From: an uncultured Flavobacteriaceae bacterium
GTDB taxonomy: Bacteria > Bacteroidota > Bacteroidia > Flavobacteriales > Flavobacteriaceae
Assembly (NCBI GenBank): GCA_947497145.1
Contig: CANMFQ010000019.1
Location: forward strand, 1 to 64,000
Length of the DNA stretch: 64,000 nucleotides
Direction: 5' to 3'
Shown: positions 11,757-35,745 of the stretch, in pieces
Layout of the letters: each line of letters begins with the position of its first letter
Position numbering within the stretch: position 1 is the first letter of the stretch
Notes under the pieces: generated by a model
The model's input: only the letters and a program-made list of their open reading frames with translations
Databases searched by the model: none
Told to the model about the DNA's origin: nothing
Made by a program: the position numbers and the translations under genes

Positions 11757-11762
11757 TTATAA

Positions 11763-16335: not shown

Positions 16336-16509
16336 ATTGTATTTGGCTAAAACAAATCAATATTTATAGTTTGAACTCTCTTGATATTCTTTTGAATGAC
16401 GCCCAAGTATCATTAGATGACCTTTAGCAGATACAGCTACAAAACAAAGAAATTTCATATCGAGGTACTTCCAAAGGGGCATGCTTACACCTAAATAATA
16501 AAAACAAAA

Positions 16510-18505: not shown

Positions 18506-18563
18506 TAAAATGTTAATTCTGAAATTAAAACAGAAGGAAAAACAACAAAAAATAGCAATCTGA

Positions 18564-19157
18564 ATGAAAACCGAGAATTATGGCTGTGGTATTATTATAT
18601 TGACATGTATACTTATTTTAGCATGCAAAGAGAAAACTCAACTCCATAAAACAAATAAAATTGCTGTTATTGATGCTCCTGTTTTTCTAGCTACAGCTTT
18701 CGATTTTCCTGTAGGCAAGCCAGATGCTAAAGGCTACTATAATGCACAATCTTTTGGAGAAAACAGGCATTTAGGCGATGATTGGAATGGTGTTAATGGT
18801 GGGAATTCTGATCTTGGAGACCCAATTTATAATGTAGCTAATGGCATTGTTGTTGAGGCTAAAAACCATGAAGGTGGCTGGGGAAATGTGATTCGAATTA
18901 GACATACGTTGCCTTCTAACAAACAAGTAGAATCCTTGTATGCTCATTGCGACACGATACTGGTGAAAAAAGGCGATCGTGTTGCTAAAGGAACTAAAAT
19001 AGGAACGATTGGTACTGCAAATGGTATCTATTTAGCGCATTTACATTTTGAAATAAGAAGTGAAATAGGCAAGCCTTTAGGCGGCGGTTATGCTGAAAAT
19101 ACTTCTGGTTATGAAAATCCAACAGTATTTATTAAAAACCACAGGCGCATTAAATAA
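18564..19157 (+). CDS. M23 family metallopeptidase lipoprotein
   Basis: The 197-residue product has a lipoprotein signal with Cys21 (LILAC). The M23 (LytM) zinc site is intact: H69 and D73 (RHLGDDWNG), H128 (LYAHCD) and H159-L-H161 (LAHLHFE). M23 enzymes cut peptide cross-links in peptidoglycan. As a lipoprotein it would act in the periplasm or at the surface. It is short, with the catalytic domain filling nearly all of the mature chain. It is the only predicted hydrolase among the island genes from 9.6 to 25.6 kb, so it could be an effector, a wall-remodelling helper or a bystander. Confidence 0.9.
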   Translation: MKTENYGCGIIILTCILILACKEKTQLHKTNKIAVIDAPVFLATAFDFPVGKPDAKGYYNAQSFGENRHLGDDWNGVNGGNSDLGDPIYNVANGIVVEAKNHEGGWGNVIRIRHTLPSNKQVESLYAHCDTILVKKGDRVAKGTKIGTIGTANGIYLAHLHFEIRSEIGKPLGGGYAENTSGYENPTVFIKNHRRIK

Positions 19158-19179
19158 ACGGGATTAAATTAAAATTTTC

Positions 19180-19244
19180 GCATTAGGAATTGTAGCTAGT
19201 GTTTGTACTCTTTTTGAGACGTAGGAATAATAAAGGGAGTGCCC
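19180..19244 (+). repeat. intergenic repeat, copy 1
   Basis: A gcattagg-ttg-agct...ctctttttgagacg-agga pattern matches the copy at 21538 over ~65 bases with scattered changes. Both copies lie just downstream of a stop codon on the same strand. Confidence 0.7.
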
Positions 19245-19247
19245 TTG

Positions 19248-19302
19248 TGAAACTGAAACTGAAACTGAAACTGAAATTGAAGTTGAAACTGAACTTGAAC
19301 TT
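19248..19302 (+). repeat. GAAACT hexamer tandem repeat
   Basis: About eight or nine copies of a 6-base unit (TGAAAC), perfect at first then degenerating (GAAATT, GAAGTT, GAACTT). Such a run is prone to slippage. It sits about 190 bases before the next start, so it is unlikely to switch translation but could affect promoter spacing or mRNA. Confidence 0.85.
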
Positions 19303-19403
19303 AAAAAAAACACTAATTCTACAATGAGTCGGTTTTAAATTTTACGGTTTCAGAATCAATACTTTGTACTCAGTACTTAATACTAACTTCTTAATACTAA
19401 TCA

Positions 19404-19500
19404 CAAAACCCCACGAATACAAACTCCCTAACTACGAATATCAATCCTTTTTTTAAATAGCGCGTCTATGCTTTAAATTTGAGTAAAAACCAGATTATGA
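19404..19500 (+). promoter_or_regulatory. shared leader/promoter module, copy 1
   Basis: Starting at caaaacc, this ~95-base stretch matches 21964-22070 almost base for base: caaaacc-ccacgaatacaaactcc, actacgaatat-aatcc, a run of seven Ts, then TAAAAACCAG-ATG. Both copies end at an ATG. It holds a TAnnTTTG box (19474-19481) and two near-identical acgaata half-motifs about 20 bases apart. It is a likely common control region. Confidence 0.6.
19474..19481 (+). promoter_or_regulatory. -7 promoter box
   Basis: TAAATTTG is an exact TAnnTTTG match, 15 bases before the ATG at 19497. The short distance would give a very short leader. If this is the promoter, the longer TTG start at 19479 is impossible, which supports 19497. 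Confidence 0.45.
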
Positions 19501-20237
19501 GCACATCAGACAACAGAACAAGAGAAGACGTATTAGCTGATTTACAAGGGTATTCCGATTCTTTTAAAACCTTAGGCATAGGCCACGAATACAACGCCGA
19601 TGGCACTATTGAAGAACTAGAAACAGCACTAACGATTGCAAAATCCTTTTTTGGTAGCGTCGCTACAAATGTAATTGAAGAAAGAGATGAGGACTTGGAA
19701 CCAATCCCTATTACTTTAACATTGTTATCAGATTTTATTAAAGATGTAAGTCCAGAACCTAAAAAGCCAATAGCCGAATTAACAGCTATTGCGAATCATC
19801 CGCAAGATGAATTAGAGCCTTCGGAAAAATTTGAAAACGGTGGTTTGTATGCTGTTTGCGAAATATTAGGTGAACAACATTTAGCCATAAATACCAACGA
19901 TTGGGATCCGTATGATACAGAATATTGTTTAAAATTGGCTTTTGAAAAATTAAATCTCGATCCCGTACCTGAAAAATTTGCTGATGAAATTGAAGACAAA
20001 CTATTGGATTTTGATGATTTAGAAGAGCAAGAAGATTATGTGTGGCATAGTACTGTAAAATTGGTGGATAATCGTGGTTACGAATTATTAGAGTTGACGC
20101 CATTAGGAGGAATATGGAGCGATAAGGTGCTGTTTATTATTAAAAAAGAACGGGCTAGTAAATGGACAAATAAAGCTTTTGGTGACTACGGATTAGTTTC
20201 GTTAACTGCTGAGTATTTAGATATGGAATTTGAGTGA
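19497..20237 (+). CDS. acidic uncharacterised cytoplasmic protein
   Basis: Started at the ATG at 19497 (246 residues); the frame is open from a TTG at 19479. It is Asp/Glu-rich with no signal peptide or membrane segment. Readable words are LYAVCEILGEQHLAINTNDWDPYDTEYCLKLAFEKLNLD (mid) and TPLGGIWSDKVLFIIKKERASKW near the end. I recognise no family with confidence. It may belong to the small acidic immunity-like proteins common in such islands. It precedes the SUKH gene by 43 bases, and both probably share the promoter module at 19404. Confidence 0.6.
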   Translation: MSTSDNRTREDVLADLQGYSDSFKTLGIGHEYNADGTIEELETALTIAKSFFGSVATNVIEERDEDLEPIPITLTLLSDFIKDVSPEPKKPIAELTAIANHPQDELEPSEKFENGGLYAVCEILGEQHLAINTNDWDPYDTEYCLKLAFEKLNLDPVPEKFADEIEDKLLDFDDLEEQEDYVWHSTVKLVDNRGYELLELTPLGGIWSDKVLFIIKKERASKWTNKAFGDYGLVSLTAEYLDMEFE

Positions 20238-20280
20238 AACTTTACAATTAGCAACGTTTAAAAAGAAAAACAAACCAACT

Positions 20281-21336
20281 ATGGAAACACTAATACCATC
20301 ACTAAAAAAGCACATCACTACAGTATTTGAATTGCTATTAAACAAAGATGTAGAAGGCTATGCAGCACTTATTATTGATGCCGAATGGATGAAAGACACA
20401 CCTGTACCACCATCAAAATTTAAGAATACTAAAACAGAACTCACCAACGGATTCAAGGATTTAATTGACGAGTTAGACGATGCAAAGGTCTATAGTAGTG
20501 AACCCAAAATAAAAGACATTAGTATTAAAGATCTTAAAGGGTTTCTGCATTTTACCGATCATAATTATGATATGGTTATAGAAAACGATTATTTTATTTT
20601 AGAAATTAACGGCGAAGTTTTAGGAAATACAAAAACCGATGTCTACAAAGAAGCTCGTGCTTTGTCAATAACTATTGTTAAGAATAAAAAAAAGCAGAAG
20701 AAAATAAAAGCCAAAAAAAGCGAATCCTTTATAAAGTCTGTTGCGCGCTATAAAGAATTTCAAGAGGATTTAGAGTTGAATCCCAAAAGTACCATTGCTG
20801 CTATTGAAGTCACCGAAAAGAAACTGAATGTAAGTATCCCAAAAGGTTTAAAAGAAGTGTATATAAAACATTGTAATGGTTTTGGAGAATCGGAAAACGA
20901 AGAACTCGTACTGTTTAAACACGAAGAAATTACAGGTATTATGGATTTTTTTCAAGAGCAAGTCAATGAAGGCTCCGGCCATAATGTGTTTACAGAAACG
21001 CATTTGGACGAACGCAAATTGACCGATGAGGAACAACAATTGGTAAAACAGTTGAATGAAAACGTGTTTATTTTTGCTGTCAATTGGTTTGAAGACCAAA
21101 ATTTAGACCTTGTCTTATTCAATACAAAAGGGCAATTTGGAGGCATTTTATACGACCATCATAATGAATACAGTTACCTAGACGATTACCTAAAACCCTT
21201 TACAACAGAAGCCCGTTGGCATTCCGATTTTAATACTTTCTTTTCAGAATTAATTACCTGTTGTCTTGAAGAATTTGATGAGGATTACGACTACGAAAAA
21301 ACAGCACAGAATGCTTTGTTTTGGAAAGAAGATTAA
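20281..21336 (+). CDS. SUKH (SMI1/KNR4) family protein
   Basis: I use the ATG at 20281 (351 residues); the frame is open from a TTG at 20230. Residues ~1-155 are an acidic/basic helical region with a KNKKKQKKIKAKKSE linker. Residues ~175-340 show the SUKH fold: AIEVTEKKLNVSIPKGLKEVYIKHCNGFGESENEE, then VFIFAVNWFEDQNLDLVLFN and GQFGGILYDHHNEYSYLDDYL. SUKH proteins are immunity proteins for diverse polymorphic toxins and can also be regulatory. No cognate toxin is adjacent. The N-terminal extension is unusual for a lone immunity protein. Confidence 0.82.
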   Translation: METLIPSLKKHITTVFELLLNKDVEGYAALIIDAEWMKDTPVPPSKFKNTKTELTNGFKDLIDELDDAKVYSSEPKIKDISIKDLKGFLHFTDHNYDMVIENDYFILEINGEVLGNTKTDVYKEARALSITIVKNKKKQKKIKAKKSESFIKSVARYKEFQEDLELNPKSTIAAIEVTEKKLNVSIPKGLKEVYIKHCNGFGESENEELVLFKHEEITGIMDFFQEQVNEGSGHNVFTETHLDERKLTDEEQQLVKQLNENVFIFAVNWFEDQNLDLVLFNTKGQFGGILYDHHNEYSYLDDYLKPFTTEARWHSDFNTFFSELITCCLEEFDEDYDYEKTAQNALFWKED

Positions 21337-21351
21337 TCAATACCATAGGAA

Positions 21352-21519
21352 ATGGAAACAAATAAAATGCAGCAAATACAACAAGAAATAAAAGCTATAA
21401 ATAAAGATTTAGCCCAATTTAATGCTGAATTTAATTTCCAAGGAACAAATGAAAAAGAACTAGAAGAAGAATTGGTTTTGGCAAGACAAATTCACGAGAT
21501 ATATTATCCTAAGTTTTGA
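21352..21519 (+). CDS. small 55-residue helical protein
   Basis: ATG at 21352, 15 bases after the SUKH stop and preceded by AGGA, begins METNKMQQIQQEIKAINKD and ends QIHEIYYPKF. It is highly charged and probably forms two alpha helices (a coiled-coil hairpin). Composition matches the neighbouring genes rather than random sequence. No family is known. It may be co-translated with the SUKH protein. Confidence 0.5.
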   Translation: METNKMQQIQQEIKAINKDLAQFNAEFNFQGTNEKELEEELVLARQIHEIYYPKF

Positions 21520-21537
21520 TTGAAAAGCGATAACTCT

Positions 21538-21626
21538 GCATTAGGGATTGCAGCAATTGTTTGAGCTCTTTTTGAGACGCAGGAACAAAAAAGCGAGTGC
21601 GGAAAGCCCGACCGTAGGGAATGCCC
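21538..21626 (+). repeat. intergenic repeat, copy 2
   Basis: Matches the 19180-19244 element (gcattagg, agct, ctctttttgagacgcagga), and then carries an extra aagcgagtgcggaaagcccgac tail like that of a widespread Bacteroidota repeat ending in ...aaagcccgac. Confidence 0.65.
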
Positions 21627-21699
21627 AAAAAGAATATGATACGATTTTTTGTTTCAGTCATCAGTTGGCAGTTTTCAGTCATACTTCCTAAAGCGAAGC

Positions 21700-21962
21700 G
21701 GTCTTACCTCTTTATTCTCTTCTCTATATTCTCTTCCACTTTTTTAAGATTCTTCACTTCGTACCTCGTTCTGAATGACAAAAGATTTAGTTCTCAGTTA
21801 GTAGTAGGCAGTTCTCTGTATTCAGTGGGCAGTCTTCAGTCATCAGTCCTATAGCAAAGCGGTCTTACGTCTATATTCTCTTCTCTTTATTCTTACCTCT
21901 TTATTCCCACCTCTTTATTCTCTTCTCTCTTCTCTATTTTCTCTTCTCTCTCCTCTATCCCC
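21700..21962 (+). repeat. pyrimidine-rich low-complexity block
   Basis: Degenerate ttctcttctct, tttattc and cagtcat units fill this stretch. The strand is nearly pure C/T in its last 90 bases. It is not coding. It could form unusual DNA structure upstream of the ankyrin operon. Confidence 0.7.
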
Positions 21963-21963
21963 C

Positions 21964-22070
21964 CAAAACCTCACGAATACAAACTCCAACACTACGAATA
22001 TAAATCCCTTTTTTTAAGTCAGTGAATTTGCTGTATTTTCATGCTAAATTGATTAAAAACAGCACTATGA
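21964..22070 (+). promoter_or_regulatory. shared leader/promoter module, copy 2
   Basis: This is the second copy of the module at 19404. It shares acgaatacaaactcc, actacgaatat-aaatcc, the T-run, and TTGA-TAAAAAC-AG before the ATG. The -7 box is weaker here (TAAATTG). It precedes the two ankyrin genes and the DUF4034-like gene, so these are probably expressed like the genes at 19497-21519. Confidence 0.6.
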
Positions 22071-23206
22071 ATCCAATTAACTCGGCAATACTTCAAAACG
22101 ATTTTACTACTGCTCAGCAGCTTTTAGAGCAAGGCGAATCGTGGAATTTAGATAACTTTATGGCAACGCAGGCATACGAACGTTTGCTAAACAACAAGCA
22201 ATTTGATTTGTTGAATATGTTTATTGAAAACGAGCATTTGTCTTTAGATATTTTTGAATACGATAGCTTTACCAGCACCATTTTTGAAAGTTTAACACGA
22301 CTACAACTAGACGACGAACTCCTTACTTATTTAAATACGCTGCTACCGCAAGTAGAAAATATTGATGATGATTTGCAAGGCATCAACTGGCTAGGATTAG
22401 CCATAAAAAACAATGCCGATATCCAATTTATTGAAAAACTCGTAGAAAACGGTTGCGATATCAATTACAGAAATAGCAGCGAACAGACCTTGTTATTTTT
22501 AACCGAAAATATAGACCTCTGTAATTTCCTTCTGAATAGCGGCGTAGATGTAAATACCAAAGACAATGGCGGAAACACGGCATTAAAAAGAGCGGTTGCT
22601 AGTGAAAATACCGATTTAATCACGGCGTTTTTAGATTTTGGTGCCGATCCTAATAGTCAGAATATAAAAGGAGAAACAGTGTATCATACCGTAGTTTTTG
22701 AAACGATGAAACCCGAAATTTATCAATTGTTGGCACAATACGACCCGCCACGATTTGATTTGTTGAACAAAAGCGGGCAATCTTTATTTTTTCAGTTTAT
22801 AGAATCGTCTAATTTAGATTGGGAGGCACAAGTACAATTGTTCGAATTGATGTTGGCAGATGGTGCCGACTTGTTTCAGAGTGAAAAAAATAGCTATGGT
22901 GAAGAACTTACTGCAGCCGATTTGCTGAGTAAAAAATCGTTCGATTTGTTTAAAAAAGTCATCGAAATGGATGGTTTTGATGCCAATCAGCAAGACAACA
23001 AGGGTAATACGTGGTTGCATTTAGTGGCTGGCGAAAACTTAAATTTCGACCAACAGAAAGCTAAGGTTTTTTATCAGAAAATTAAAGCCTTGCTTAAACT
23101 TGGTGCCAACCCAAGCCTTAGAAACGACCAAGATAAAACACCTATCGATTTGGCATCCGACGACAATTTAAAAGCAAAAGGATTGGCCTTATTATTAAAA
23201 CAATAA
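22067..23206 (+). CDS. ankyrin-repeat protein
   Basis: Started at the ATG at 22067 (379 residues, MNPINSAILQ); the frame opens 45 bases earlier inside the shared leader. About eight ankyrin-type units are visible, clearest at GINWLGLAIKNNADIQFIEKLVENG, STDLITAFLDFGADPNSQNIKGET and NKGNTWLHLVAGENLNF-ALLKLGANPSLRNDQDKTPIDLA. Ankyrin repeats form protein-binding solenoids. There is no signal peptide, so it is cytoplasmic. It is followed by nine bases and the ankyrin-SHOCT gene. Role unknown. Ankyrin proteins of this kind often serve as immunity or adaptor proteins. Confidence 0.9.
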   Translation: MNPINSAILQNDFTTAQQLLEQGESWNLDNFMATQAYERLLNNKQFDLLNMFIENEHLSLDIFEYDSFTSTIFESLTRLQLDDELLTYLNTLLPQVENIDDDLQGINWLGLAIKNNADIQFIEKLVENGCDINYRNSSEQTLLFLTENIDLCNFLLNSGVDVNTKDNGGNTALKRAVASENTDLITAFLDFGADPNSQNIKGETVYHTVVFETMKPEIYQLLAQYDPPRFDLLNKSGQSLFFQFIESSNLDWEAQVQLFELMLADGADLFQSEKNSYGEELTAADLLSKKSFDLFKKVIEMDGFDANQQDNKGNTWLHLVAGENLNFDQQKAKVFYQKIKALLKLGANPSLRNDQDKTPIDLASDDNLKAKGLALLLKQ

Positions 23207-23215: not shown

Positions 23216-24571
23216 ATGTCATTATCATTTATACAAGCCTGCGAAGGCGGAAAACGAAAAATAGCCGAATTATTATTAGAACAAGAAGTTGCCGAAGCCA
23301 ATTATACCGACGAAAAAGGGCGAACCGCTTTGCATTATGCCGCGCATAGAGGCTATGTGGAAATTTGTAAAAAACTGATTGAAAAAGGTGCCGAAATAGA
23401 TTACGAAGACCACAATGGCGAAACGCCTTTGTATTTTGCATTTCTACAAAATCAGACGGCTACTGGCGGATTGTTATTGGAGCACGATGCTAAAATGGAC
23501 ATTAAAGATTACCAAGGCAATAGCTTATTGCATTTGGCAGCAAGCAACGGACAAATTGCACTGTGTAAATTGTTGTTAGAAAAAGGAATGGACGTGGATA
23601 TTATCAACAATAACAACGAAACGCCATTGATGATTGCTGTAGCTTGTAGAAAACTTCCTGTGGTAAAATTACTCATAGAACACAATGCCGATGCCAGTGT
23701 CACTACCAAGCAAGACGATACTTTATTGCATTTGGCAGTGAAGTCTAAAAATATGCCGTTAGTGAAATTATTCATTGAGCAAGGTGTGGAAATAGATGCC
23801 TTTAATTCGGCAGGAGAAACCGCTTTGTTGATTGCTTGTTTCGATGGAAACAGAATGTTGGTAAAAGTACTCATGGAAGCAGGAGCAGATGTGTTTGTAA
23901 CCAATTCGTCTGGGTTATCGCCAATTTATCAAGCCTGCGGAAACAACCAAAAAGAATTGGTGGCACTGTTTTTAACCAAAGGCTTAGATGTGAATTATAA
24001 ATTGCCAGAGCAAGGCAGTGCAACCTATATGGATTCGTATTTAGAATGGGTAGAAACGGCAAACAGTTTATCTATGACAAGCGCGTATTCTATTACCAAT
24101 AGCTACACTTATGGTGGTGAAAGTTTGTTGCATTTGGCAGTTAAAAACGGACATTTATATATGGTAAAAGTGTTGTTAGAACACGAAGCGGATATCAATA
24201 TTCAAGATGAATCTGAAAACACACCTCTACATTATGCGGCGGCAAATGGCAAAAAGGATATTGTAAAATTACTTTTAGAAAATGGTGCAGATGCTGAAAT
24301 AACCAACGTTAAAGAGCAAAAAGCAATTGATTATTCTAACGTAAAAGGTTTTAATGAGATTACAGAACTCATTTTAAAAAACAATCCGAATGTAACATCA
24401 AATGTCGTAGCAAAACCACAAGCAGTAGCTACGGAAACACCTTCGGAAGCAACGCTAAGCAAAGAGGAAGTGATGGCTAAACTTAAAAATTTAAAAGAAT
24501 TGCTGGATATGGATATTTTATCGCAAGCGGAATTTGATACTCAGAAGCAAGATTTATTAAAATTGTTGTAG
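23216..24571 (+). CDS. ankyrin-repeat protein with SHOCT tail
   Basis: The 451-residue product has ten or more ankyrin repeats from residue 5 to ~390 (classical units such as GRTALHYAAHRGYVEICKKLIEKGAEID, and ENTPLHYAAANGKKDIVKLLLENGADAE). A Pro/Thr/Ala linker (400-420) and a C-terminal SHOCT motif (KLKNLKELLDMDILSQAEF) follow. The SHOCT motif closely matches that of the SPFH protein at 10604 (AKLKNLK-D/E-L). SHOCT is a short helical module for oligomerisation or partner binding. The start follows the preceding ankyrin stop by nine bases, and its stop abuts the next gene's ATG. Confidence 0.9.
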   Translation: MSLSFIQACEGGKRKIAELLLEQEVAEANYTDEKGRTALHYAAHRGYVEICKKLIEKGAEIDYEDHNGETPLYFAFLQNQTATGGLLLEHDAKMDIKDYQGNSLLHLAASNGQIALCKLLLEKGMDVDIINNNNETPLMIAVACRKLPVVKLLIEHNADASVTTKQDDTLLHLAVKSKNMPLVKLFIEQGVEIDAFNSAGETALLIACFDGNRMLVKVLMEAGADVFVTNSSGLSPIYQACGNNQKELVALFLTKGLDVNYKLPEQGSATYMDSYLEWVETANSLSMTSAYSITNSYTYGGESLLHLAVKNGHLYMVKVLLEHEADINIQDESENTPLHYAAANGKKDIVKLLLENGADAEITNVKEQKAIDYSNVKGFNEITELILKNNPNVTSNVVAKPQAVATETPSEATLSKEEVMAKLKNLKELLDMDILSQAEFDTQKQDLLKLL

Positions 24572-25558
24572 ATGGGGTTTAAAAACACATTCAACGCCTT
24601 GTTTTCAAAGGGTAAGGCGTATAGCTATTATACGTTAGAGCCTTTAAATCAGTTTGTAACACTCATTAAAAGCATCAACACAACCAATGTAGAAGAGAAA
24701 ACACTGGCAGCAGAAACCTTGTTTTTAGAAGCCAATTGGGATGTGCGAAATCATTTAATCTTTGAAAATATTAGTTTTATCTCTTTTATTGAAAATTGGG
24801 AGTCGCTTGCCTCAGAATCATTTTTACCTAAACTGTTATTAGGCAGTTTGTATACGAGCAAAGGTTGGGAGATTCGTGGCGGAGATTATATCGATGCAGT
24901 TTCCGATACCCAATGGTTGGGTTTTGAAGATTATCTTACAAAAGCACACGAAAAAATAAATGAAAGCCTACTAATGAATCCTGATTTATCAGAAGCCTAT
25001 GTACTCTTGTTAACAATTTATATTGGTTTAGGTGATTCTGAAATGCAATGGGACGCTTATCACAACGCCATACAATTAACACCAGAGAACTTATTTGCAC
25101 ATAACGATATGCTTTGGGGACAAACACCAAGATGGAATTGCAACGCTAATGCGTCATTAAACGATACGGAACATTTTATGCTAAAAGCTATAGAAACCTT
25201 ATCAACGCCTTGCAAATATTACCTGTGGTTTTCTTTTATAGAAGAATGTTTAGAGGAATTAGAAAAAGACGATTACGAAGACTTTATTAATTCGGAAACC
25301 ATACGAAATCAAACCAATGAAACGATTAGTAAATTTGAATTTGATACAACGCTTTCCGTATTTAATTTTCAATATGCAAATATGGTACTTAAAATAGCTT
25401 ACGAACTGGAACTAGAGCATCCAAAGTTACCAGAAATAGCGGCTTTAGTATTGCCAAACACAATATTTGTAAACATCTGGGATGATTATGCCGACACACC
25501 AAAAGAAGCCGCAAAATGCATCAAAAAAGTATTGAAATGGAATAAGCATTGGCTTTAA
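24572..25558 (+). CDS. TPR-like protein resembling DUF4034
   Basis: The 328-residue product begins directly after the ankyrin-SHOCT stop (TAG then ATG), implying coupled translation. Residues ~85-215 (LLGSLYTSKGWEIRGGDYIDAVSD, ESLLMNPDLSEAYVLLLTIYIGLG, AIQLTPENLFAHNDMLWGQTPRW) match the DUF4034/TPR-like pattern: an aromatic-rich helical array ending in a W-G-x-x-P-R-W block. There is no signal peptide or catalytic motif. Function unknown. It is the third gene of the ankyrin operon. Confidence 0.65.
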   Translation: MGFKNTFNALFSKGKAYSYYTLEPLNQFVTLIKSINTTNVEEKTLAAETLFLEANWDVRNHLIFENISFISFIENWESLASESFLPKLLLGSLYTSKGWEIRGGDYIDAVSDTQWLGFEDYLTKAHEKINESLLMNPDLSEAYVLLLTIYIGLGDSEMQWDAYHNAIQLTPENLFAHNDMLWGQTPRWNCNANASLNDTEHFMLKAIETLSTPCKYYLWFSFIEECLEELEKDDYEDFINSETIRNQTNETISKFEFDTTLSVFNFQYANMVLKIAYELELEHPKLPEIAALVLPNTIFVNIWDDYADTPKEAAKCIKKVLKWNKHWL

Positions 25559-25601: not shown

Positions 25602-28601
25602 ATGACCAGAAACACACTAAATAAAACCATTAAAATTAGAATTCTATCCATAGTTATAATGCTTATTGTGGGAATTGGCAATACTGTAATCGCTCAGCAA
25701 CAAGACACCATTTATTTCAATACACATTGGAATCCCACAACCAAAATAAAGGCTGTGTATTACAGACTAAAACCCGCACCTAAAGTTGGTGATTTATATC
25801 ATATTCAAGATTTTTATATCAACGGCGCATTACAAATGGATGGGTATTCTGTTAAACAAGACGAAGATGCATTTCATGGTCAGGTGATTTGGTATTATAA
25901 ACATGGTACACCAAAAAACATTCGGCATTACAATAAAGGAAAGCTAGAAGGGAAATCCCAATCCTTTTTTTCTAACGGCAGTTTACAAGCAGAAGGAGTG
26001 ATTAAAGACAATCAATATTGGAATGGAAGTTTCGAAATTTCATCTTCATCAGAGGGCTATAAAACCAAAGTGTATCAAGATGGGTGTTTAAAAGCGAAAC
26101 ATCAGTATTATAAAGACAATTTTTCAATTGCTTCAACCTTAAATTTCAATTGTAGTAATTATCATACTTCCGAAGTATTTTACGATAAAAATGGTAAAGA
26201 AATCAGTCAATTAATTTATGATAATTCTAACAATAAACCTATTCCTCTTTCTGGAACGGAGCAATTATTTATTTTAGATAACGAAGAGTTTGTGCTTAAA
26301 AGTATTGGCACTAGAAGCTTTTCGGGTAATAAAGACCTACAACATGTAAAAACAAAATTAGCGGTACTTACCGATACCCTTAGAGGCACTAACAAATCAG
26401 GCTATAGGTTTGAAGGGACCTTTTATACAAACGGAAAAATTGTAAATTTTGTAAACAAAAAGAAAGAAGGAGAAACACAATGCTGTTTTAATGCAAGCCA
26501 TATTAAAGCTAAAGGTGTTTATAAAAACAACCAAAAGCATCATGGCACATTTTATAACCCAAGAACCAACACTATTAGCAGTTATAAAAACGGTTATCGA
26601 GATGGTGCACAAATCACCTATGATGCAGCTGGAGATGTGATTAAACAAGAAACTTTTAAAGAGGGTAAACGTGATGGACTGTTTATTACACATAATCCAT
26701 TTACCAAAACAAAACACCAATGTATTTATAAAAACAATTATCCGTTTGAAGGCGAAGAATTGCAATACAATACATTAACCAACTATATGAATGGTAAACG
26801 TATTGAGATCACTGAATATGATTATGATACCCACCAACCAATTTCTAAAACACGTTACGACTTGGAAGACAAATATAAAATCACTTCTAAAACCATTTAT
26901 GACCAAGGCAATAGTTATGCGCTAGAATACAAAAATGGTATGCCTTTTAAAGGTATTGAAAAAAATAACAACGGATTTAAAACTTTTGCCAATGGAGAAG
27001 CTACTGGACCCTATGAAATTTTTGCAAAAAACTATTTAGAAACCGGGCAGTATATTGCTTATAATAAACACGGATTAATAACCATAAAACTAAAAGACCG
27101 CACATTGCAATGTGTTTACGATAATGGAAAACCCATAAACGGTGTAGACTACAATAGCTTATCAGGTCAACAAATCACCTATACTAATGGAATTAAAAAT
27201 GGTTTAAACATAGAAACACGTAAAAATATAGCAGCCTACGATTCGTTAACACGTTATTATAAAAACAATAAGCCTGTTGGTAAACTACTGTATTTTAAAA
27301 ATGGAACACTAGTCAATACCAGCAGTTATAAGAACGGAAAACCTTACAACGGAACATTTTACCAATACAATAGCACTAAAACATATAAAAAAGGCAAGCT
27401 TGTAGAATCTGTTATCAATGATGAACATTATGGATTTAAGCAACATTTCTATTATAGTAATGATGGTGTTTCCAAATTAAAGACCACTAATACAAAAGAT
27501 AGTATTACCTATACCTTAAGTTATAATAATAGAAGTCCGTTTCAGGGACATTTCTTTGGAAAGTTGCCGTCTACAATAAATTATATTCTTACACCATATG
27601 AAAAAGGAAAAAAACATGGAGAAGAAATAGTATATACACATCCGTTTAAAGATATAAGCTATACCCAAAATTACATTCAGGGCATAAAAGAAGGAACGAG
27701 TAGCTATTATTTTAAAGGACAAATTTTTGAAGGTACTTATAAAAACGATTTACCTTACGATGGTGATATCGGATTAGCCTATTCTGAAAAAGATATCCTT
27801 TGTGTTTCCCAATACATAAAAGGAAAAGCACAGCAGCAAAATTGTTTTGATAACAATAAATATGAGAGTAGAGTGGATACCATTTTCTCGGGAACATATA
27901 AAAATGGCAAGCCATATTCAGGAGTTTTCATCAATAAAAACCGTTATCATGTAGCGGCAAAAACGTATGAAGAAGGAAAGCTTCAAAAAACCTTTGTAAA
28001 TCCATTAAAATATAAATACTTAAGAGCTTCACTAAATATTAGTCACCATAAACAAACTGATTCTATTGTAAATAAACGATTGTATACTGCAGTAGTTCAT
28101 TATACTAATGATGAAAAAACGAGTGGTCATGCCATATATAAAAACAGTAAAGACGAAACTATTGGAACTATTCGTTTTAATAACGGAAGCCTTACAGATG
28201 CAGATTTATCTCTTTTAGTAGGCCAAAGTCCTGTATCACTCAAAACAAACAACGCCTCAACGGTAGTTTTACATGTTGAATCTGTTAATGGTATTCAAGC
28301 ACGAGCAGAAGCTTCTGTTCATTTAAATAAAAAGTTACATCTATTTCTATATGATGTACTGAGTTATTTTCAAAAACGACCATCGGCAAAATTGAGGTTT
28401 TATAATATAAAAACGAGCAAAAAATTGTTAGAAATAACTTTTAAAGAAGGAAAACCTTATCATGGCACCATGCCTCAACTTCAAGCATTCAACAAAGAGT
28501 TAAGTCAGAATATTGAATTAAAAACCTATGTTTCTGGAATTTTGAAAACGCGAAAAAGTATTCCTCTTGAGGATTTTTTAAAAGGGAAATTTAAACAATG
28601 A
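25602..28601 (+). CDS. giant secreted MORN/YwqK-repeat protein 1
   Basis: The 999-residue product has a signal peptide ending VIAQ (about residue 30), then repeating Y-K-N-G-K-P-F-x-G units throughout (at least nine, such as YKNGMPFKGIE, YKNGKPYNGTF, YKNGKPYSGVF) with intervening YxNGxxxG MORN-like words. Repeats of this type build beta-strand arrays. YwqK is the short namesake. The protein is predicted to be exported, with no membrane anchor visible. No enzyme domain is seen. It is translationally coupled (ATGA) to the 524-residue gene and paired with a paralogue at 30172. Confidence 0.8.
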   Translation: MTRNTLNKTIKIRILSIVIMLIVGIGNTVIAQQQDTIYFNTHWNPTTKIKAVYYRLKPAPKVGDLYHIQDFYINGALQMDGYSVKQDEDAFHGQVIWYYKHGTPKNIRHYNKGKLEGKSQSFFSNGSLQAEGVIKDNQYWNGSFEISSSSEGYKTKVYQDGCLKAKHQYYKDNFSIASTLNFNCSNYHTSEVFYDKNGKEISQLIYDNSNNKPIPLSGTEQLFILDNEEFVLKSIGTRSFSGNKDLQHVKTKLAVLTDTLRGTNKSGYRFEGTFYTNGKIVNFVNKKKEGETQCCFNASHIKAKGVYKNNQKHHGTFYNPRTNTISSYKNGYRDGAQITYDAAGDVIKQETFKEGKRDGLFITHNPFTKTKHQCIYKNNYPFEGEELQYNTLTNYMNGKRIEITEYDYDTHQPISKTRYDLEDKYKITSKTIYDQGNSYALEYKNGMPFKGIEKNNNGFKTFANGEATGPYEIFAKNYLETGQYIAYNKHGLITIKLKDRTLQCVYDNGKPINGVDYNSLSGQQITYTNGIKNGLNIETRKNIAAYDSLTRYYKNNKPVGKLLYFKNGTLVNTSSYKNGKPYNGTFYQYNSTKTYKKGKLVESVINDEHYGFKQHFYYSNDGVSKLKTTNTKDSITYTLSYNNRSPFQGHFFGKLPSTINYILTPYEKGKKHGEEIVYTHPFKDISYTQNYIQGIKEGTSSYYFKGQIFEGTYKNDLPYDGDIGLAYSEKDILCVSQYIKGKAQQQNCFDNNKYESRVDTIFSGTYKNGKPYSGVFINKNRYHVAAKTYEEGKLQKTFVNPLKYKYLRASLNISHHKQTDSIVNKRLYTAVVHYTNDEKTSGHAIYKNSKDETIGTIRFNNGSLTDADLSLLVGQSPVSLKTNNASTVVLHVESVNGIQARAEASVHLNKKLHLFLYDVLSYFQKRPSAKLRFYNIKTSKKLLEITFKEGKPYHGTMPQLQAFNKELSQNIELKTYVSGILKTRKSIPLEDFLKGKFKQ

Positions 28602-30172
28602 AAACACATCAAAACAGTTTACTAAAACCTGTCATTTTCTGTTTGCTTTGCCTGACTTCGATGGCTTATGCAAAAACCAACAAACCAATAACTATGGAAC
28701 AATCTCTAGATACAATAATCGCTACAGAAGTCATTTCAAAAGTGATCAACCATCAGATAAATGAAACCAGCCAGTTCAAGTTTAATTATAAGGTAAGTAA
28801 TAGAAATTTAGGCGTTCCCTATAGCATACAACCCGAATGGATTGGCGATATTAATAACGATAATGAAAACGATGTGGTCTTTACGTATCAGGATGTGTTT
28901 CGTATAGGTGCTATGCATCTTATATTGGTTGAAATAAAAGGTGCTAAACTACATAAGCTTCATAAAATAGTGACCTATAATATGCAGGGAAATTTTATTT
29001 TTAAACCTCAAACCATTTCAAATGCGTTGCTAAGTATTGATGTTTTAGAGCGTTCAGAAAACACAGATGTGCTATCAGAAGTAATTCAACTAGAATTTTA
29101 TATTGAAGATGGAGATCTATTAGAAAAAAGCAATTCTGCTTGTCCTGTTTCAGCTTTAGGCAAGCCACTTTTTAAAGATGAATCGGGGGTTGCTATTAAA
29201 CGTGAACAGTTTTTAAATGCTCATTTTAATACTGTTTTTGTTGAACGGTATAAATCAAAAGAAGCACCATTAGCAATGGAAGCACTTCGTACGGGATGCG
29301 AAAACACCATCTTAAATTTCACTATTATACGTCCTTTCGACGAAAACGAATTTCATTTTAAAGCTGAGGATAGTACAGCTCTTATACACGATAAATTATA
29401 CGAATTACGACAACAACAACGCCAACAACTCATTACCTATCTGTATGATAATTTAAAGGAGTTAAAACGAAAAACATATTACAATAAACTCATTAAAAAA
29501 AGCTTGAAAGCGCTTAAAAAAGCCGATTTTAATAGGCTGGTACTAACTCAAAAGGATTGTTATATTTCCCTTTCGTTAAAAAACGATTGGCGAGTAACTT
29601 TTGGTATTGGTAAAGATTCTAATCGAAATTTTAATTTAATCGCTAATCAAGGAGATGCAAAAAACGAACAAAATTGCAAGCTATTAGAAATTTTTAAACG
29701 AAAAAATAAACTTAAAAATGGCGAAAAACTAGCGCCCATTTCAATAGAAGAAACCAACGAACAACTGCAAGGTTTGTCTGCTTTTTTTAAGCAAATAAGT
29801 GAAGCTTTTCTTTCTAAAAAGAATTCTGAAATTATGGCGCTAATTGATGAAAACTACAAATTAGAACAACACGATAAGATGCTAAAAGGCAATACCAAGC
29901 AGTTTTTAAGTGAGCTTACAACAATGCCATATTACAATGCAAAAACCTATTCTATTATTGACCTGGCAACCGATATAAACCTAAAACAAATTGAAACTTT
30001 TGAGCTTTTAGATTGGGACTTCGACAAACAAAGTTCGTTTCAAAACGGATTGGGTAATGTCTTGTTTTATGTAAAAACGAAGCAAAAAAGCTATCAAATA
30101 GCGATTGCGTTTATCTATTATAAAGATGAACACGATAAGACCATATTTAAAATTTCAGGAGGAATGGGCTAA
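28598..30172 (+). CDS. uncharacterised secreted protein, GDINNDNENDV motif
   Basis: The 524-residue product has a signal peptide ending AYAK (about residue 26). Near residues 85-100 lies IGDINNDNENDVVFTYQ, a Ca-loop-like motif of FG-GAP/VCBS proteins (D-x-N-x-D-x-x-D). The rest is a charged helical region (RQQQRQQLITYLYDNLKELKR) and a C-terminal beta domain ending KISGGMG. No enzyme motif is seen. Its stop overlaps the next gene's ATG (TAATG), and its start overlaps the previous stop, so the three make one coupled unit. I could not place it in a family. Confidence 0.7.
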   Translation: MKTHQNSLLKPVIFCLLCLTSMAYAKTNKPITMEQSLDTIIATEVISKVINHQINETSQFKFNYKVSNRNLGVPYSIQPEWIGDINNDNENDVVFTYQDVFRIGAMHLILVEIKGAKLHKLHKIVTYNMQGNFIFKPQTISNALLSIDVLERSENTDVLSEVIQLEFYIEDGDLLEKSNSACPVSALGKPLFKDESGVAIKREQFLNAHFNTVFVERYKSKEAPLAMEALRTGCENTILNFTIIRPFDENEFHFKAEDSTALIHDKLYELRQQQRQQLITYLYDNLKELKRKTYYNKLIKKSLKALKKADFNRLVLTQKDCYISLSLKNDWRVTFGIGKDSNRNFNLIANQGDAKNEQNCKLLEIFKRKNKLKNGEKLAPISIEETNEQLQGLSAFFKQISEAFLSKKNSEIMALIDENYKLEQHDKMLKGNTKQFLSELTTMPYYNAKTYSIIDLATDINLKQIETFELLDWDFDKQSSFQNGLGNVLFYVKTKQKSYQIAIAFIYYKDEHDKTIFKISGGMG

Positions 30173-33100
30173 TGGGAAAACGAACACACATCATAACTCT
30201 ATTAATAATTATGGTACTTGGCAAGACATTACATTCGCAAACAGTAAAAGACACGGTGTACTTTGATGCAAATGGGTATATGGTTGATAAAGCCATTGCG
30301 CATCACTATCTTTTAATTCCTATGGAAAAAGAAAAAGAGTTGTACCGAATGACCAAAAAATACTTAAACGGAAAAACGTATAAGGATGGCTTAACCCCAA
30401 ATCCGTATCATAATTTTGAAATATATGAAGGCCTAGTAACAACGTATCATCCTAACGGAACCATTAAATCTACAGCAGAATATAAAAACTACAAGTATCA
30501 CGGACGCCTAGAATGGTTTAACGAAAGCGGACAAAACATAGCATCTGGAATTGCTGAAAGCGGAAATTTTACAGACGGCACATTCTTTATCGAAAACGAC
30601 TTTAAACACTATTTATTAACGGTTAAAAACAATCAAATTATAACTAAAATTTTCAGCTATGCCAACGGAAAAAAGGCACAGATAGATTATTTCAATAAAA
30701 GCAATGTTTGCGAAACTACCGAATATTTCAATCTGCAAGGCGATAGCTTAGGAAGTCTAGCATATCATACCAACCCCAATGCTGTTCGCGAATCTGGAAC
30801 TAAAGTCGATTTTCATTTTCAGCATAAAATGGTTGCTTTTATAAAAGCAATAAGCACTTATAACACCGTGGGTAACCTAACAGAAATACTTACTAAAACA
30901 CCAAAGGGCAAAACTTTAGCAAAAGGAACTTACAACAGAACAACGGCACAATATTCTGGAAGCATTTATGAACAAGGTAACATTACCGTTTACAAAGAAA
31001 ATACACCCACAAAGGTTACCTTTTACAAACCCAATGGCGAAGCTCTAGCAGTGGGCGTTTTTAAAGACGCGTATCCCTACAATGGCACTTTCTGCTCTGA
31101 AATCTTTCAGTTTTCAGGAAAATCGACACCACCAAAACATCAAATTGTTTGCAAAACCTACAAAAATGGAGTTCTAGAAGGAAAACAAATTACTTACAAC
31201 CCTAATTTTAAAGTAGAAGCATATACCACATATAAGGCTGGTAATATTGAAGGCGAAGCAATGTCTACGAGTATTTATACAGGAAAACAGCATAAAATAA
31301 TCTACAAAAACGGAAAGCCTTTTGAGGGAGACGAAATCAATTTAAGTATAAATAGCTATAAAGAAGGGCTTTTAGTAGAAAAAAAGGAATTCGATTTTGA
31401 CACGAATCAGTTATCTAAAATTAGTTATTACAATACTAATAAAGAATTGATAAAAGTGAAGCAAAAATATAAGCAAAACTGGTACGAAGCCATTTATAAA
31501 TCTGGAAAGCTATTTGAAGGTTATGAAGCGACTTCTAAAAATGTTACGGCCTATAAAAACGGAGAAAAAAATGGTAAATTTATACAAGAATCCTACCATT
31601 TAATCACCCAAGGCAATTACGAAAACGGAATGTTAAACGGTGTTGTAACGTATTTTAGAAAACAGCGTAAAGACACATTGTCTTGCCTATTTAAAAAGGA
31701 TAACCCTGTAGAAGGTCTCAAGGTAGAACACTTTAACCCCAATTTTATTACTACCTATAAAAACAAAGTAAAACACGGCAAGGAAGTTACGCATTTAAAA
31801 TCCTATTTTTCTAAATGCGATGCTGTAGAACGTTATTTTGAAAAAGGGTATCCAACAGGCATTAGCACTTATTTTAAAGACGAAAAACCAATAGCAACTC
31901 TAACATACAAAAACCATATACCTTATGATGGCGTTTTGCTTGGGAAACGTTTTAAGAAAGAATTTAAAAACGGACAATTGGTTTTAGAATCTAAAATAAT
32001 TTCATCATCATTTGTTGAAACCACGTATTATAAAATGAATACCATCGTGAAGCGGGAATATACACTGCCTCGATTTGACGAACCCGCTTATACTATAATT
32101 TACAAAAACGGAAAACCTTTTCAAGGTACTCTGGTATATTTTGATTCCGAAGCCAAAACCACAAGATTTTCTCAGTATAAGAATTTTAAAAAAGAAGGTA
32201 AAGAGCAACTTAAATTAAAAGTACATAAAGACACGATAAGTATAGAACAATTTTATGTGTCTGAAAAACAAGAAGGAGCATCTCATTTTATTTTTGGTGA
32301 AGAAAATGAAAATCACCGTGGCATTTATAAAAACGGTAATCCTCAAAACGGTCAGTTTTTAGAACTTTTAGACGCCGAATTAATTGCTATTGCTCAGTAT
32401 AAAAATAACGAATGCTTAAAAAAAGTATTTTATTTTCCACACAAACCTAATAAGGTTGTAGACTCCATTATCTATAAAAACAATATGCCTTTTGAAGGTG
32501 TAAATTACGCCTTTTTCAATAAAATGAAATTGAAGCAATATGTTACAAAAGGCATAAAAACCAAAACAGAGGCAAGGTATGTTTATGATTTTTCAGAGAA
32601 TGCTATAGAAATTCATCACAAACCATTAGTAGACAGTATTTATAGCAGTCGCTGTTTTTATCCTAATGCAGAGGTAGCTTTTACAGATAGTAGTCTAAAA
32701 AGTGGCCGTGTAGATTTTTCTAAAGACGACAAATCCTTAGGTTTTCTGGTGTTTAAAGACCGTGTACTTAAAGATATTCAGCTTGAATATGTTTGTAATA
32801 AGCAAACCATAAGTGTAACAATGCATTCTAATACTAGCGTTAGCATAACAGGAAATGAGCTAAATACAGCAAATTTAACCTATAAAACAATAGTGTCTTC
32901 TGCTTTCTTTATCCCCGAAGACATGCACAATTTATATGTGAATTTTCCATTTATTAATCCTTCAAAATCTGAGATAATCAGCTATGAATATTATCTAAAT
33001 GATTTGCCTAATCCCATTGCAGAAATAACAATGCAAAACGGCAAATATCATTCAGGAGATTTTATTAGCTACGATAGTTTTAATAAAACATATGTGTATC

Positions 33101-33189
33101 GCGTATATTTTAACGGTGAGAATATCATTGTAATTAAAAATTTATCTCTCGAAGATTTAGAAGCGATGTATCAAGAAAAGCAGCATTAA
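30172..33189 (+). CDS. giant secreted MORN/YwqK-repeat protein 2
   Basis: The 1005-residue product is a paralogue of the 25602 protein. It has a signal peptide ending LHSQ (about residue 23) and at least eight YKNGKPFEG-like units (YKNGKPFEGDE, YKNGKPFQGTL, YKNNMPFEGVN, FKKDNPVEGLK), with the same YxNG tandem texture. Near the C-terminus both proteins carry an NNGSL/FKDRVLKD-type beta region. The ATG overlaps the previous stop. Twin giant repeat proteins around a third secreted protein suggest a surface or secreted complex. No enzyme domain is seen. Confidence 0.8.
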   Translation: MGKRTHIITLLIIMVLGKTLHSQTVKDTVYFDANGYMVDKAIAHHYLLIPMEKEKELYRMTKKYLNGKTYKDGLTPNPYHNFEIYEGLVTTYHPNGTIKSTAEYKNYKYHGRLEWFNESGQNIASGIAESGNFTDGTFFIENDFKHYLLTVKNNQIITKIFSYANGKKAQIDYFNKSNVCETTEYFNLQGDSLGSLAYHTNPNAVRESGTKVDFHFQHKMVAFIKAISTYNTVGNLTEILTKTPKGKTLAKGTYNRTTAQYSGSIYEQGNITVYKENTPTKVTFYKPNGEALAVGVFKDAYPYNGTFCSEIFQFSGKSTPPKHQIVCKTYKNGVLEGKQITYNPNFKVEAYTTYKAGNIEGEAMSTSIYTGKQHKIIYKNGKPFEGDEINLSINSYKEGLLVEKKEFDFDTNQLSKISYYNTNKELIKVKQKYKQNWYEAIYKSGKLFEGYEATSKNVTAYKNGEKNGKFIQESYHLITQGNYENGMLNGVVTYFRKQRKDTLSCLFKKDNPVEGLKVEHFNPNFITTYKNKVKHGKEVTHLKSYFSKCDAVERYFEKGYPTGISTYFKDEKPIATLTYKNHIPYDGVLLGKRFKKEFKNGQLVLESKIISSSFVETTYYKMNTIVKREYTLPRFDEPAYTIIYKNGKPFQGTLVYFDSEAKTTRFSQYKNFKKEGKEQLKLKVHKDTISIEQFYVSEKQEGASHFIFGEENENHRGIYKNGNPQNGQFLELLDAELIAIAQYKNNECLKKVFYFPHKPNKVVDSIIYKNNMPFEGVNYAFFNKMKLKQYVTKGIKTKTEARYVYDFSENAIEIHHKPLVDSIYSSRCFYPNAEVAFTDSSLKSGRVDFSKDDKSLGFLVFKDRVLKDIQLEYVCNKQTISVTMHSNTSVSITGNELNTANLTYKTIVSSAFFIPEDMHNLYVNFPFINPSKSEIISYEYYLNDLPNPIAEITMQNGKYHSGDFISYDSFNKTYVYRVYFNGENIIVIKNLSLEDLEAMYQEKQH

Positions 33190-33191
33190 AT

Positions 33192-33725
33192 ATGAATTCG
33201 TATGCTACATCAACACGTTTAATTAAGTTTCTGTTTTGCGGATTTGCCTTGGCTCTGTTTTTTGGTATGTGTACGGCATATCTATCGGTAAACCTATTTC
33301 ATTGTTATGGGGGTATTGAATTTTTAATTGGATTAGGCTTAGGCTACGGTTTGTATCGATTAGCTAAAAAAATTAAATATTTTAAATTAGATAATATTCC
33401 AAAACTTCTTATTGTGTTTTGCATTGGTTATTTGCTACTGCATTACTTTTTTGAGTTCATTTTTATAGCATTAGATCAACATATTCGTTTTGTTACTTCA
33501 TTTTCTAAATCACTTCATTTTAATGATTTAATAGCCTTCAAACCTCAGCAAACGTTTAGTCATTTTTTAGGAAATAAAATTTCAAAAGGCTTTCGTATTT
33601 ACAGTTTTAATACAGGGATTCTGGGTTGGGTAGTTTGTTGGGTATTACAGTTTTTTATCATTTATATCCTGGCATATCGTGTACTTGTTGACTATTTATC
33701 GAAGTATATAGCAGATGAATTATAA
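33192..33725 (+). CDS. four-helix uncharacterised membrane protein
   Basis: The 177-residue product has about four hydrophobic segments (13-35, 40-58, 74-95, 143-165) and starts two bases after the MORN protein 2 stop. Segment text includes LALFFGMCTAYLSVNLFHCYGGIEFLIGLGLGYGLYRLA and WVVCWVLQFFIIYILAYRVL. No family recognised. Possibly an anchor or channel for the exported giants beside it. Confidence 0.6.
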   Translation: MNSYATSTRLIKFLFCGFALALFFGMCTAYLSVNLFHCYGGIEFLIGLGLGYGLYRLAKKIKYFKLDNIPKLLIVFCIGYLLLHYFFEFIFIALDQHIRFVTSFSKSLHFNDLIAFKPQQTFSHFLGNKISKGFRIYSFNTGILGWVVCWVLQFFIIYILAYRVLVDYLSKYIADEL

Positions 33726-33749
33726 TCAAAAAACATAATTTAAAACGGC

Positions 33750-34505
33750 ATGAAATTAATTAAATATTATATACAATTATTATCACTTATAATTCTCGTT
33801 ACCAGTTGTAGCAATATAAGTAACAAAAATATCGAGGATTTAAAAAATATGCATCAGTTAAAGGTTGAAATAGCTATTTTAAATGCACTTGAAACCAAAA
33901 CCATAGATGGTATTATGGTTACTTTATACGATGCAAATGACAAACTAGTTGGTAACGATAGTTTACAAGTTTTAATGAATGACAAACCAATGACGCTTAG
34001 TGGAAATTATGCAGGCTATTATTCATATGATCGGTATTATCTATTAAGAAAGCAAAGTCCAGAAACACAGTATCAATTTAAATTAATGTTTCCTGATAGC
34101 ACCCTTTTTAATTTAGGCAGTATTACCCCAAAACCTACCGAATTAAACAGAAGACTAACAATTGCAAAACAAATCAACAAGCCAGAAGCAATTGTCATGA
34201 CTTGGAGTGATTTGTCACATCTTACACACGTAGATTTAAAAATGTATTATGAGGATTCTACAGACGCAAGCCATTATACCTTCAAAACAGAAACTATCGA
34301 TTTGGTGACCACAAAACAACGAGAAAGGGGAAACTTTATACTTTCAAAAGAACAATTAAGAGATTCTAGTTTGGTTATAAAAAGCATTAAAAGTGTCATT
34401 TCTGAAAAGCAAAGTGGGCTTTTATTGCAAAATCTACTTGAAGGGAGTTCTTGCTATTTTACTAATTCGCTAACTCAAACCACAGACGTTATTCTAACTA
34501 AATAA
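33750..34505 (+). CDS. uncharacterised lipoprotein
   Basis: The 251-residue product has a lipobox at LVTSC (about Cys20), then a beta-rich body with TIDGIMVTLYDANDKLVGNDSLQVLMNDKPM and LFNLGSITPKPTELNRRLTIAKQINKPEAIVMTWS. It resembles the N-terminal beta-sandwich part of other surface lipoproteins, but no family is recognised. It lies between the membrane protein (24 bases) and the 34510 gene (4 bases) in the same operon. Confidence 0.6.
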   Translation: MKLIKYYIQLLSLIILVTSCSNISNKNIEDLKNMHQLKVEIAILNALETKTIDGIMVTLYDANDKLVGNDSLQVLMNDKPMTLSGNYAGYYSYDRYYLLRKQSPETQYQFKLMFPDSTLFNLGSITPKPTELNRRLTIAKQINKPEAIVMTWSDLSHLTHVDLKMYYEDSTDASHYTFKTETIDLVTTKQRERGNFILSKEQLRDSSLVIKSIKSVISEKQSGLLLQNLLEGSSCYFTNSLTQTTDVILTK

Positions 34506-34509
34506 TATT

Positions 34510-35745
34510 ATGGGAATTGTAACAGGCTTAGATCTTATTCATAATAAAACCACTTCGGGAGTATTCAAAAAAGATTCTGAAACCATGTTGCCTATTGTTA
34601 GTCAACTTCATGCAAAACCTTTTACTGTTGCCGAGTTATATCCAAAACTAGAAGAGGCTTTTAAAAACAATACGGAATACACCTTAAAACGCATTTCAGA
34701 ATCGGAGTTACAGATAGAAGAAAGGCACAACGAATTAATGACGTTGACTTATACCAATTATACGATTTCTGAAGAAAACAATTCGTTACGCATTAAAAGT
34801 CGGTTTTTAACACCATTATTCTATGAACTCCTTTCAGATTATGCTACTAAAGGACATGAAGTTGTTATTGATTGGCAAGGCAAGCATCCGTTCTTTACAA
34901 CTAAGACCATTAAAAATTATAAAGGTGGGCATTATCATTATGCCTGTAAAGTTCCAATCAAGCAATTAATCAGTTATGTTTCAGGTGTTTTTAAGGAATT
35001 TAAATCTCATAATGCATTTTGGGATATCACTATTTTTCATCAAGACTTTAGTATAGAAATAAACAATTATTCTTGTGCCATTTATGAAGATGATGCTTCT
35101 GTGCTACCAGAACATCAAGCTTTTTGTATGATAATCAATGAACCTCAAATTCAATTTAAAACGATAGATTTAGAAATATCTGAAGGTGGGAGCTATTATT
35201 TTAATGATAAATCTCCTGATGAAATAATGACGGTTTTAAAAGCGATGCTTTCAGAATTAAAAGCACAGGGAACCAAGGGGTTTTTAACCGTATTCAATCC
35301 CATTTGCCAGTCGTATTATGAGATTTCAGCAACGATTAATTCGTTAGGGATAAAAGAAGAATTGATTGATAGACTATTGTCTAGTTGTAGTTTTGTGAAT
35401 CAAAATAAAGTAACACATATTCTAAAGCGTTTGCCCGATGGCACAATAGACATCGAAGGGACTTATCAACAAAATTCAACACCAATGGGTATCACAATTA
35501 CTGATGACGATCTTTTCAAAGGCGATTGCTATTTTGATAAATTTTACAATCATCAAGTGTTTGAAACCCTTTTAACTACTATAGCCAAGCATTTTTGTGC
35601 ATGTTTTCTGAGCTGTTGGGAATTATTAGAAGAAAACGGATTAGACATCTATTATCACAACCAAGAAGATAAAAAGCGAATAGCAACTCATTTTAAGAAT
35701 CTAGAAGGTTTTGAGGACTATGAGGTGCGGTTTGTTGCCGTGTAA
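34510..35745 (+). CDS. uncharacterised 411-residue cytoplasmic protein
   Basis: It starts with MGIVTGLDLIHNKTTSGVFKKDSETML and has no signal peptide or membrane segment. Readable words: GHEVVIDWQGKHPFFTTKTIKNYKGGHYHYACKVPI, DITIFHQDFSIEINNYSCAIYEDDA, ISEGGSYYFNDKSPDEIM and EDYEVRFVAV at the end. Composition and position match the operon above. I recognise no family, and no catalytic pattern is evident. It is the last gene of the coupled unit that begins at 25602. The next gene is on the other strand. Confidence 0.6.
   Translation: MGIVTGLDLIHNKTTSGVFKKDSETMLPIVSQLHAKPFTVAELYPKLEEAFKNNTEYTLKRISESELQIEERHNELMTLTYTNYTISEENNSLRIKSRFLTPLFYELLSDYATKGHEVVIDWQGKHPFFTTKTIKNYKGGHYHYACKVPIKQLISYVSGVFKEFKSHNAFWDITIFHQDFSIEINNYSCAIYEDDASVLPEHQAFCMIINEPQIQFKTIDLEISEGGSYYFNDKSPDEIMTVLKAMLSELKAQGTKGFLTVFNPICQSYYEISATINSLGIKEELIDRLLSSCSFVNQNKVTHILKRLPDGTIDIEGTYQQNSTPMGITITDDDLFKGDCYFDKFYNHQVFETLLTTIAKHFCACFLSCWELLEENGLDIYYHNQEDKKRIATHFKNLEGFEDYEVRFVAV

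Follow-up and report, generated by a model that had tools for sequence, protein, structure and literature searches.

Some Gram-negative bacteria have large numbers of exported MORN2 proteins; in Fusobacterium these have been found in outer-membrane vesicles, and their function is untested (PMC10434195). Bacterial proteins annotated as MORN repeat variants have elsewhere been tied to a hairpin 'beta-flower' fold (PMC10584680). Here we describe a locus in a 64,000-nucleotide stretch of DNA from an uncultured Flavobacteriaceae bacterium (contig CANMFQ010000019.1, hereafter the window), in which two exported proteins of about 1000 residues, g1 and g2, represent a long variant that is new to the exported family of MORN-variant repeat proteins. 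We put at about even the chance that these two giants are old paralogues within that family that act as two basic rods in the envelope, each of them multivalent.

The gene cluster and its two giants

10604 to 11599, + strand: SPFH/Band_7_1-SHOCT protein in the lineage-specific block; its close subfamily lies near MORN proteins in genomes G275 and G227
22022 to 23206, + strand: cytoplasmic Ank-repeat protein that opens the probable nine-gene unit; likely true start an ATG near 22067
23216 to 24571, + strand: cytoplasmic Ank-SHOCT protein, SHOCT C-terminal (Ank_2 6e-76; SHOCT 28.2 bits against a cut-off of 27)
24572 to 25558, + strand: TPR-like cytoplasmic protein (TPR_8 match below the cut-off)
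25602 to 28601, + strand: g1, exported giant of 999 aa with a Sec-type signal; beta-hairpin repeats of about 22 aa, with a three-hairpin super-repeat at residues 371–750; its nearest relative is the lone giant of genome G049
28598 to 30172, + strand: orf2, exported near-orphan of 524 aa with one DxNxDxxxD segment
30172 to 33189, + strand: g2, exported giant of 1005 aa, paralogous to g1 over its full length but diverged
33192 to 33725, + strand: integral membrane protein of 177 aa with about 3–4 hydrophobic segments
33750 to 34505, + strand: lipoprotein of 251 aa (lipobox LVTSC, sequence read directly)
34510 to 35745, + strand: acidic cytoplasmic protein of 411 aa, without a signal

The coordinates and lengths of the six open reading frames from g1 onward agree throughout with a preliminary description of this DNA, as do the overlaps at both junctions of the central trio, of 4 bp between g1 and orf2 (28598–28601) and 1 bp between orf2 and g2 (30172), and the succession after g2 of the membrane-protein gene (2-nt gap), the lipoprotein gene (24 nt) and the 411-aa gene (4 nt). 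The coupled operon proposed there stands as far as coupling is concerned but probably not in its six-gene extent, since the Ank, Ank-SHOCT and TPR genes adjoin upstream with gaps of 9, 0 and 43 nt leading to g1, the first base of the TPR gene being the base directly after the Ank-SHOCT stop; the transcription unit thus probably comprises nine genes. The first large gap upstream of it measures 685 bp (21337–22021), and its 3' boundary is a convergent AraC-type gene at 35767. The ends of the unit were defined neither by a promoter scan (74 sites versus 61.7, sd 6.7, in shuffles) nor by terminator-like sites, which were fewer than in shuffles. The intergenic sequence directly 5' of the unit (21540–22020) contains many short direct repeats (CAGTCTTCAGTCATCAGT-like and TCTTCTCT runs), and elsewhere in the window two adjoining cytochrome-like open reading frames (729–2480) are almost the same over a C-terminal stretch, which marks a partial gene duplication.

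The two giants had been described as twins, and BLASTP aligns them over 995 aa at 27% identity (E 9e-69), which, spanning 995 of about 1000 residues, identifies true full-length paralogues and not just similar repeats. They have in common Sec-type N-termini, YKNGxPxxG repeats and near-equal length (999 and 1005 aa), as first described, and both are basic (pI 9.4 for g1 and 9.1 for g2). The pattern [YFL]xNxxPxxG, picked after inspecting the sequences, occurs seven times in g1 and six times in g2 versus 0.00–0.01 per shuffle, at positions that match between the two (376/378, 506/507, 576/579, 641/644, 713/719 and 766/768). Tandem units of MORN_2 type, of about 22–23 residues, are present with a hairpin spacing of 20–25 residues; the Pfam MORN_2 model (PF07661) scores 19.8 bits in g1 and 20.1 in g2, both below the curated cut-off of 29.6. 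NCBIfam models matched none of g1, g2 and orf2, a plasmid collection searched with g2 returned no match, and a PDB sequence search with both giants gave nothing useful and detected no sequence relation to eukaryotic MORN proteins.

Signal-like N-termini are present in g1, g2 and orf2, and no signal is seen in the Ank, TPR or 411-aa proteins. A search of the NCBIfam library found no T9SS C-terminal sorting domain (TIGR04183 type) in g1, g2 or orf2, and TIGR04183 was found by the same search in a control protein (L024:11634). Surface exposure is thus unsupported, and sequence features make it likelier that the three proteins are periplasmic or lie against the outer membrane on its inner face.

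A predicted sheet of beta-hairpins

An AlphaFold model of g1, built from a three-sequence alignment (g1, g2 and the Algibacter homologue from genome G049), is all-beta and consists of consecutive hairpins, with a pLDDT of about 78 over residues 300–750; as a whole the model is of modest confidence (mean pLDDT 59, pTM 0.34). One hairpin starts every 20–25 residues (about 22), and the six P-type motifs between residues 371 and 750 are predicted to fall on hairpins 0, 3, 6, 9, 12 and 15. The chance of all six falling in one phase is 1.6e-4, for a motif chosen after inspection. The resulting super-repeat of about 67 aa, or three hairpins, keeps the same register in g1 and g2, and the motif spacing of 63–75 residues, or twice that distance, is seen again in g2 and the G049 giant and partly in G438. 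This moderate-quality model supports a predicted arrangement in which hairpins of about 22 residues stack into a long MORN-like sheet with a YKNGxPxxG turn at every third hairpin. The earlier assignment of YwqK/MORN-type repeats to these exported paralogues is supported.

Structural comparison places the g1 model nearest to single-layer sheets, the best VIA-align rows being MORN1 (Z 9.1), RSPH1 and OspA (Z 8.4–9.1), with junctophilin-2 lower (Z 6.7–6.8); MORN1 superposes on the model with an rmsd of about 9 Å over 179 residues. The best Foldseek E-values went instead to Rhs, teneurin and Tc shells (about 1000 columns, E 1e-11), matches that we judge generic because their TM-score is about 0.1. 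Together with the length of about 1000 aa and the three-hairpin super-repeat, they would suit a Rhs/teneurin-like hollow shell in which the string of hairpins coils into a cocoon around the product of the coupled orf2. We consider such a shell very improbable, since TM-scores this low amount to no global superposition, VIA-align puts MORN sheets above Rhs, neither giant matches the YD-repeat family (Rhs/Tc), and lone giants occur without a cargo gene. The chance is similarly slim that the giants are a new exported scaffold class, a hollow or coiled carrier of orf2 cargo switched on by the kinase–LytTR pair encoded in the surrounding block.

Distribution of the family and its neighbours

Among 98 relatives, only G049 has a full-length giant at E<=0.01 apart from the window, and a nucleotide-pattern scan of GTDB contigs likewise found a giant only in this uncultured Algibacter sp. 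When 396 genomes of the family were searched with a profile, the N-terminal unit (about 190 aa) was found in 37 genomes from 26 genera, mostly in exported MORN proteins of about 190–900 aa, and most or all of the model was matched only by the giants of the window (two), G049 (one), G275 (one) and G438 (two). A further 395 genomes spread over the phylum yielded no additional full-length giant. The Algibacter-like genome G049 and G275 each encode a complete giant alone (990 aa, L022:10086-13058, and 1090 aa, L060:6686-9958), and G438 has tandem giants of 949 and 911 aa separated by 5 nt, without the 524-aa partner (L059:7574-13164); a DKNYY-family lipoprotein gene precedes that tandem. G014, G170 and G070 each have a shorter homologue on its own. 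The long members of the family usually occur alone. In a tree with long branches, g1 groups with the G049 giant and not with g2 (80/85), and g2 and the G438 pair are not firmly placed; in a six-row tree the grouping of g1 with the G049 giant is itself weak. We infer that the second giant arose by an old duplication of a gene that works alone elsewhere.

A 190-aa exported MORN protein lies between mevalonate-pathway-like genes in two genera (L064:5799-6371 and L065:5234-5806), a conserved position without obvious reason, and several genomes of the genus encode a protein with a 1097-aa open frame that has weak similarity to the giants' MORN units (L003:1501-1788, corresponding to G000:C3:234283-234570, and also L008, L010 and L015).

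The secreted partner of the giants had been credited with a Ca-loop-like motif. Secretion is consistent with its N-terminus, which resembles a signal, and a single DxNxDxxxD segment, DINNDNENDVV, is present; a calcium-binding domain of dockerin or FG-GAP-like type is not borne out, as the loop is single rather than repeated and Pfam gives no match. Searches of NCBIfam and the PDB with orf2 were also without a match, and a structure model of orf2 alone was unusable (pLDDT 33). Its sole homologue among the 396 family genomes is a 359-aa exported protein in G420 (28.5% identity over 189 aa), a genome for which no giant is listed at E<=1e-10. That stand-alone gene (L070:8617-9696) encodes a DFNGDGINDLI loop, and close by is the gene of another exported protein, likewise small, whose loop reads DVNKDGEED. 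The 411-aa protein has no homologue among the 98 relatives.

These distributions bear on the proposal, made in the preliminary description, that the proteins look like one surface assembly, which we read as an obligate pair with its partner. Complete giants occur separately in G049 and G275, the very observation named there as contrary to the proposal, the pair in G438 is without orf2, and the T9SS tail is lacking, so the proposal is not upheld. The exported giant pair had also been called unusual, which it is to a degree, although it is not unique, since giants lie next to each other in G438 too. An obligate complex of g1, orf2 and g2, exposed at the surface with the membrane protein and the lipoprotein, would fit the overlap of the genes in one order and the export common to the three proteins; lone giants, the G438 pair, the G420 homologue of orf2 without giants and the missing sorting domain make it decidedly unlikely. 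As an innovation of this single lineage such a complex could still hold, and the tight coupling leaves room for a joint function with orf2 here that is not conserved. Still more doubtful, and in our estimate highly improbable, is a neutral or decaying family expansion in which duplicated repeat proteins are kept without a specific joint role. The patchy distribution, the two sets of neighbouring giants and their high divergence would fit it, but g1 and g2 are intact over 1000 codons and conserve the register of their motifs at 27% identity, which implies selection. The likelier reading of the giants is two binding rods of the envelope, encoded within a lineage-specific block, and not halves of one obligate machine.

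That block extends well beyond the giants. The fumC–hypothetical–GNAT segment (window 6271–9397) is common to six genus-mates, in which EttA comes next, whereas no part of 9657–35745 was found in the stretch read in those genomes and EttA lies on another contig in the window genome; the block is therefore lineage-specific and sits at a rearrangement breakpoint. Upstream of the nine-gene unit its genes are co-directional (9657–21336) and encode DUF6985, SPFH-SHOCT, a TPR-kinase with a LytTR regulator (11763/13952), a DUF1266 lipoprotein, a short MORN protein, LemA and SUKH (SMI1_KNR4); the Ank pair of the nine-gene unit also belongs to the block. The short MORN_2 open reading frame (15976–16335, 119 aa, TTG start, no signal) looks truncated or mis-started. 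Close relatives of the SPFH-SHOCT protein (>50% identity) lie 3 kb from the G275 giant and, in G227, at a distance of 15 kb from a MORN protein, and a close copy in G032 is not near a MORN protein, so that the linkage is suggestive but not proof. The copies in those two other genera (L060:3001-3984 and L081:2613-3602), 60–74% identical to window 10604–11599 and within 3–15 kb of exported MORN proteins, occur together with DUF6620-like genes. As an obligate partner this subfamily was rejected, with no close copy in G049 or G438 and the G032 copy on another contig; the family at 17468–18505 was also dismissed as a partner, being near a MORN protein only in G014.

The composition of the block raises the main rival to the envelope rods, namely that 9.6–35.7 kb is a heterogeneous immunity locus in which the giants serve in the periplasm as decoys or immunity proteins that soak up effectors delivered by competitors. 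Described polyimmunity loci are variable sets of co-directional genes, among them SUKH, Ank and LRR genes (PMC3482391), and the block is likewise co-directional, contains SUKH, two Ank genes, DUF1266 and DUF6985, and is missing from six genus-mates at a rearrangement breakpoint. Relatives lie near LRR-DUF1963, DUF5724/DUF4132 and DKNYY genes, and in Bacillus YwqK pairs with the LXG toxin YwqJ (PMC8321402). We nevertheless regard this role as possible but rather unlikely: SUKH is the only confident immunity family, Ank being generic, no toxin or secretion gene is recognised near the giants, the PADLOC defence library gives generic Ank matches only, and a text search of the immunity survey did not find MORN (PMC3482391).

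Proposed role and relation to known systems

As envelope rods, each giant would be a rigid, basic (pI 9.1–9.4), multivalent binding element, either periplasmic or on the outer membrane's inner face. The levels of g1, orf2 and g2 would be matched by translational coupling, and the membrane protein and lipoprotein encoded downstream may serve the rods as anchors or partners. Because a giant gene works alone elsewhere and was duplicated long ago, the second giant is more likely to contribute another binding specificity than to be the obligate other half of a complex. The cytoplasmic Ank, TPR and 411-aa proteins would be companions from the same locus that do not share the rods' compartment.

Several described systems resemble the locus in part. 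Heterogeneous polyimmunity loci are like the block in being co-directional, in varying between close relatives and in containing SUKH and Ank, its only known immunity families, but the block consists mostly of proteins not known as immunity proteins, with no toxin seen. The YwqK antitoxin of Bacillus (YwqJ–YwqK) is similar to the giants in repeat type, by name and motif. The giants differ in being exported, about 1000 aa long and without an NCBIfam match, and the open reading frames adjoining g1 and g2 include no toxin family comparable to the LXG partner of YwqK. Eukaryotic MORN1, RSPH1 and junctophilin have the single-layer hairpin sheet predicted for g1 but are cytoplasmic and without detected sequence relation in the PDB. 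Within the Flavobacteriaceae, exported MORN proteins of 190–900 aa (for example L064:5799-6371, L065:5234-5806 and L062:5116-7683) share with the giants a homologous N-terminal unit of about 190 aa and a signal, whereas most are without the remainder, they are single genes, and the short ones lie beside mevalonate-pathway-like genes.

The MORN_2 proteins (PF07661), including the exported MORN2 proteins of Fusobacterium, have the same hairpin repeats of about 22 residues (YxxGxxxG) and the same export, and in Fusobacterium several such genes are neighbours, as here (PMC10434195, Table 2). The giants are set apart from them by scores below the Pfam cut-off, a length of about 1000 aa, a super-repeat of three and coupling to an exported non-MORN protein. 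As giant, near-pure-repeat members with a clean three-hairpin period, occurring both alone and in pairs, they would be good objects for studying the structure and binding of a bacterial MORN rod.
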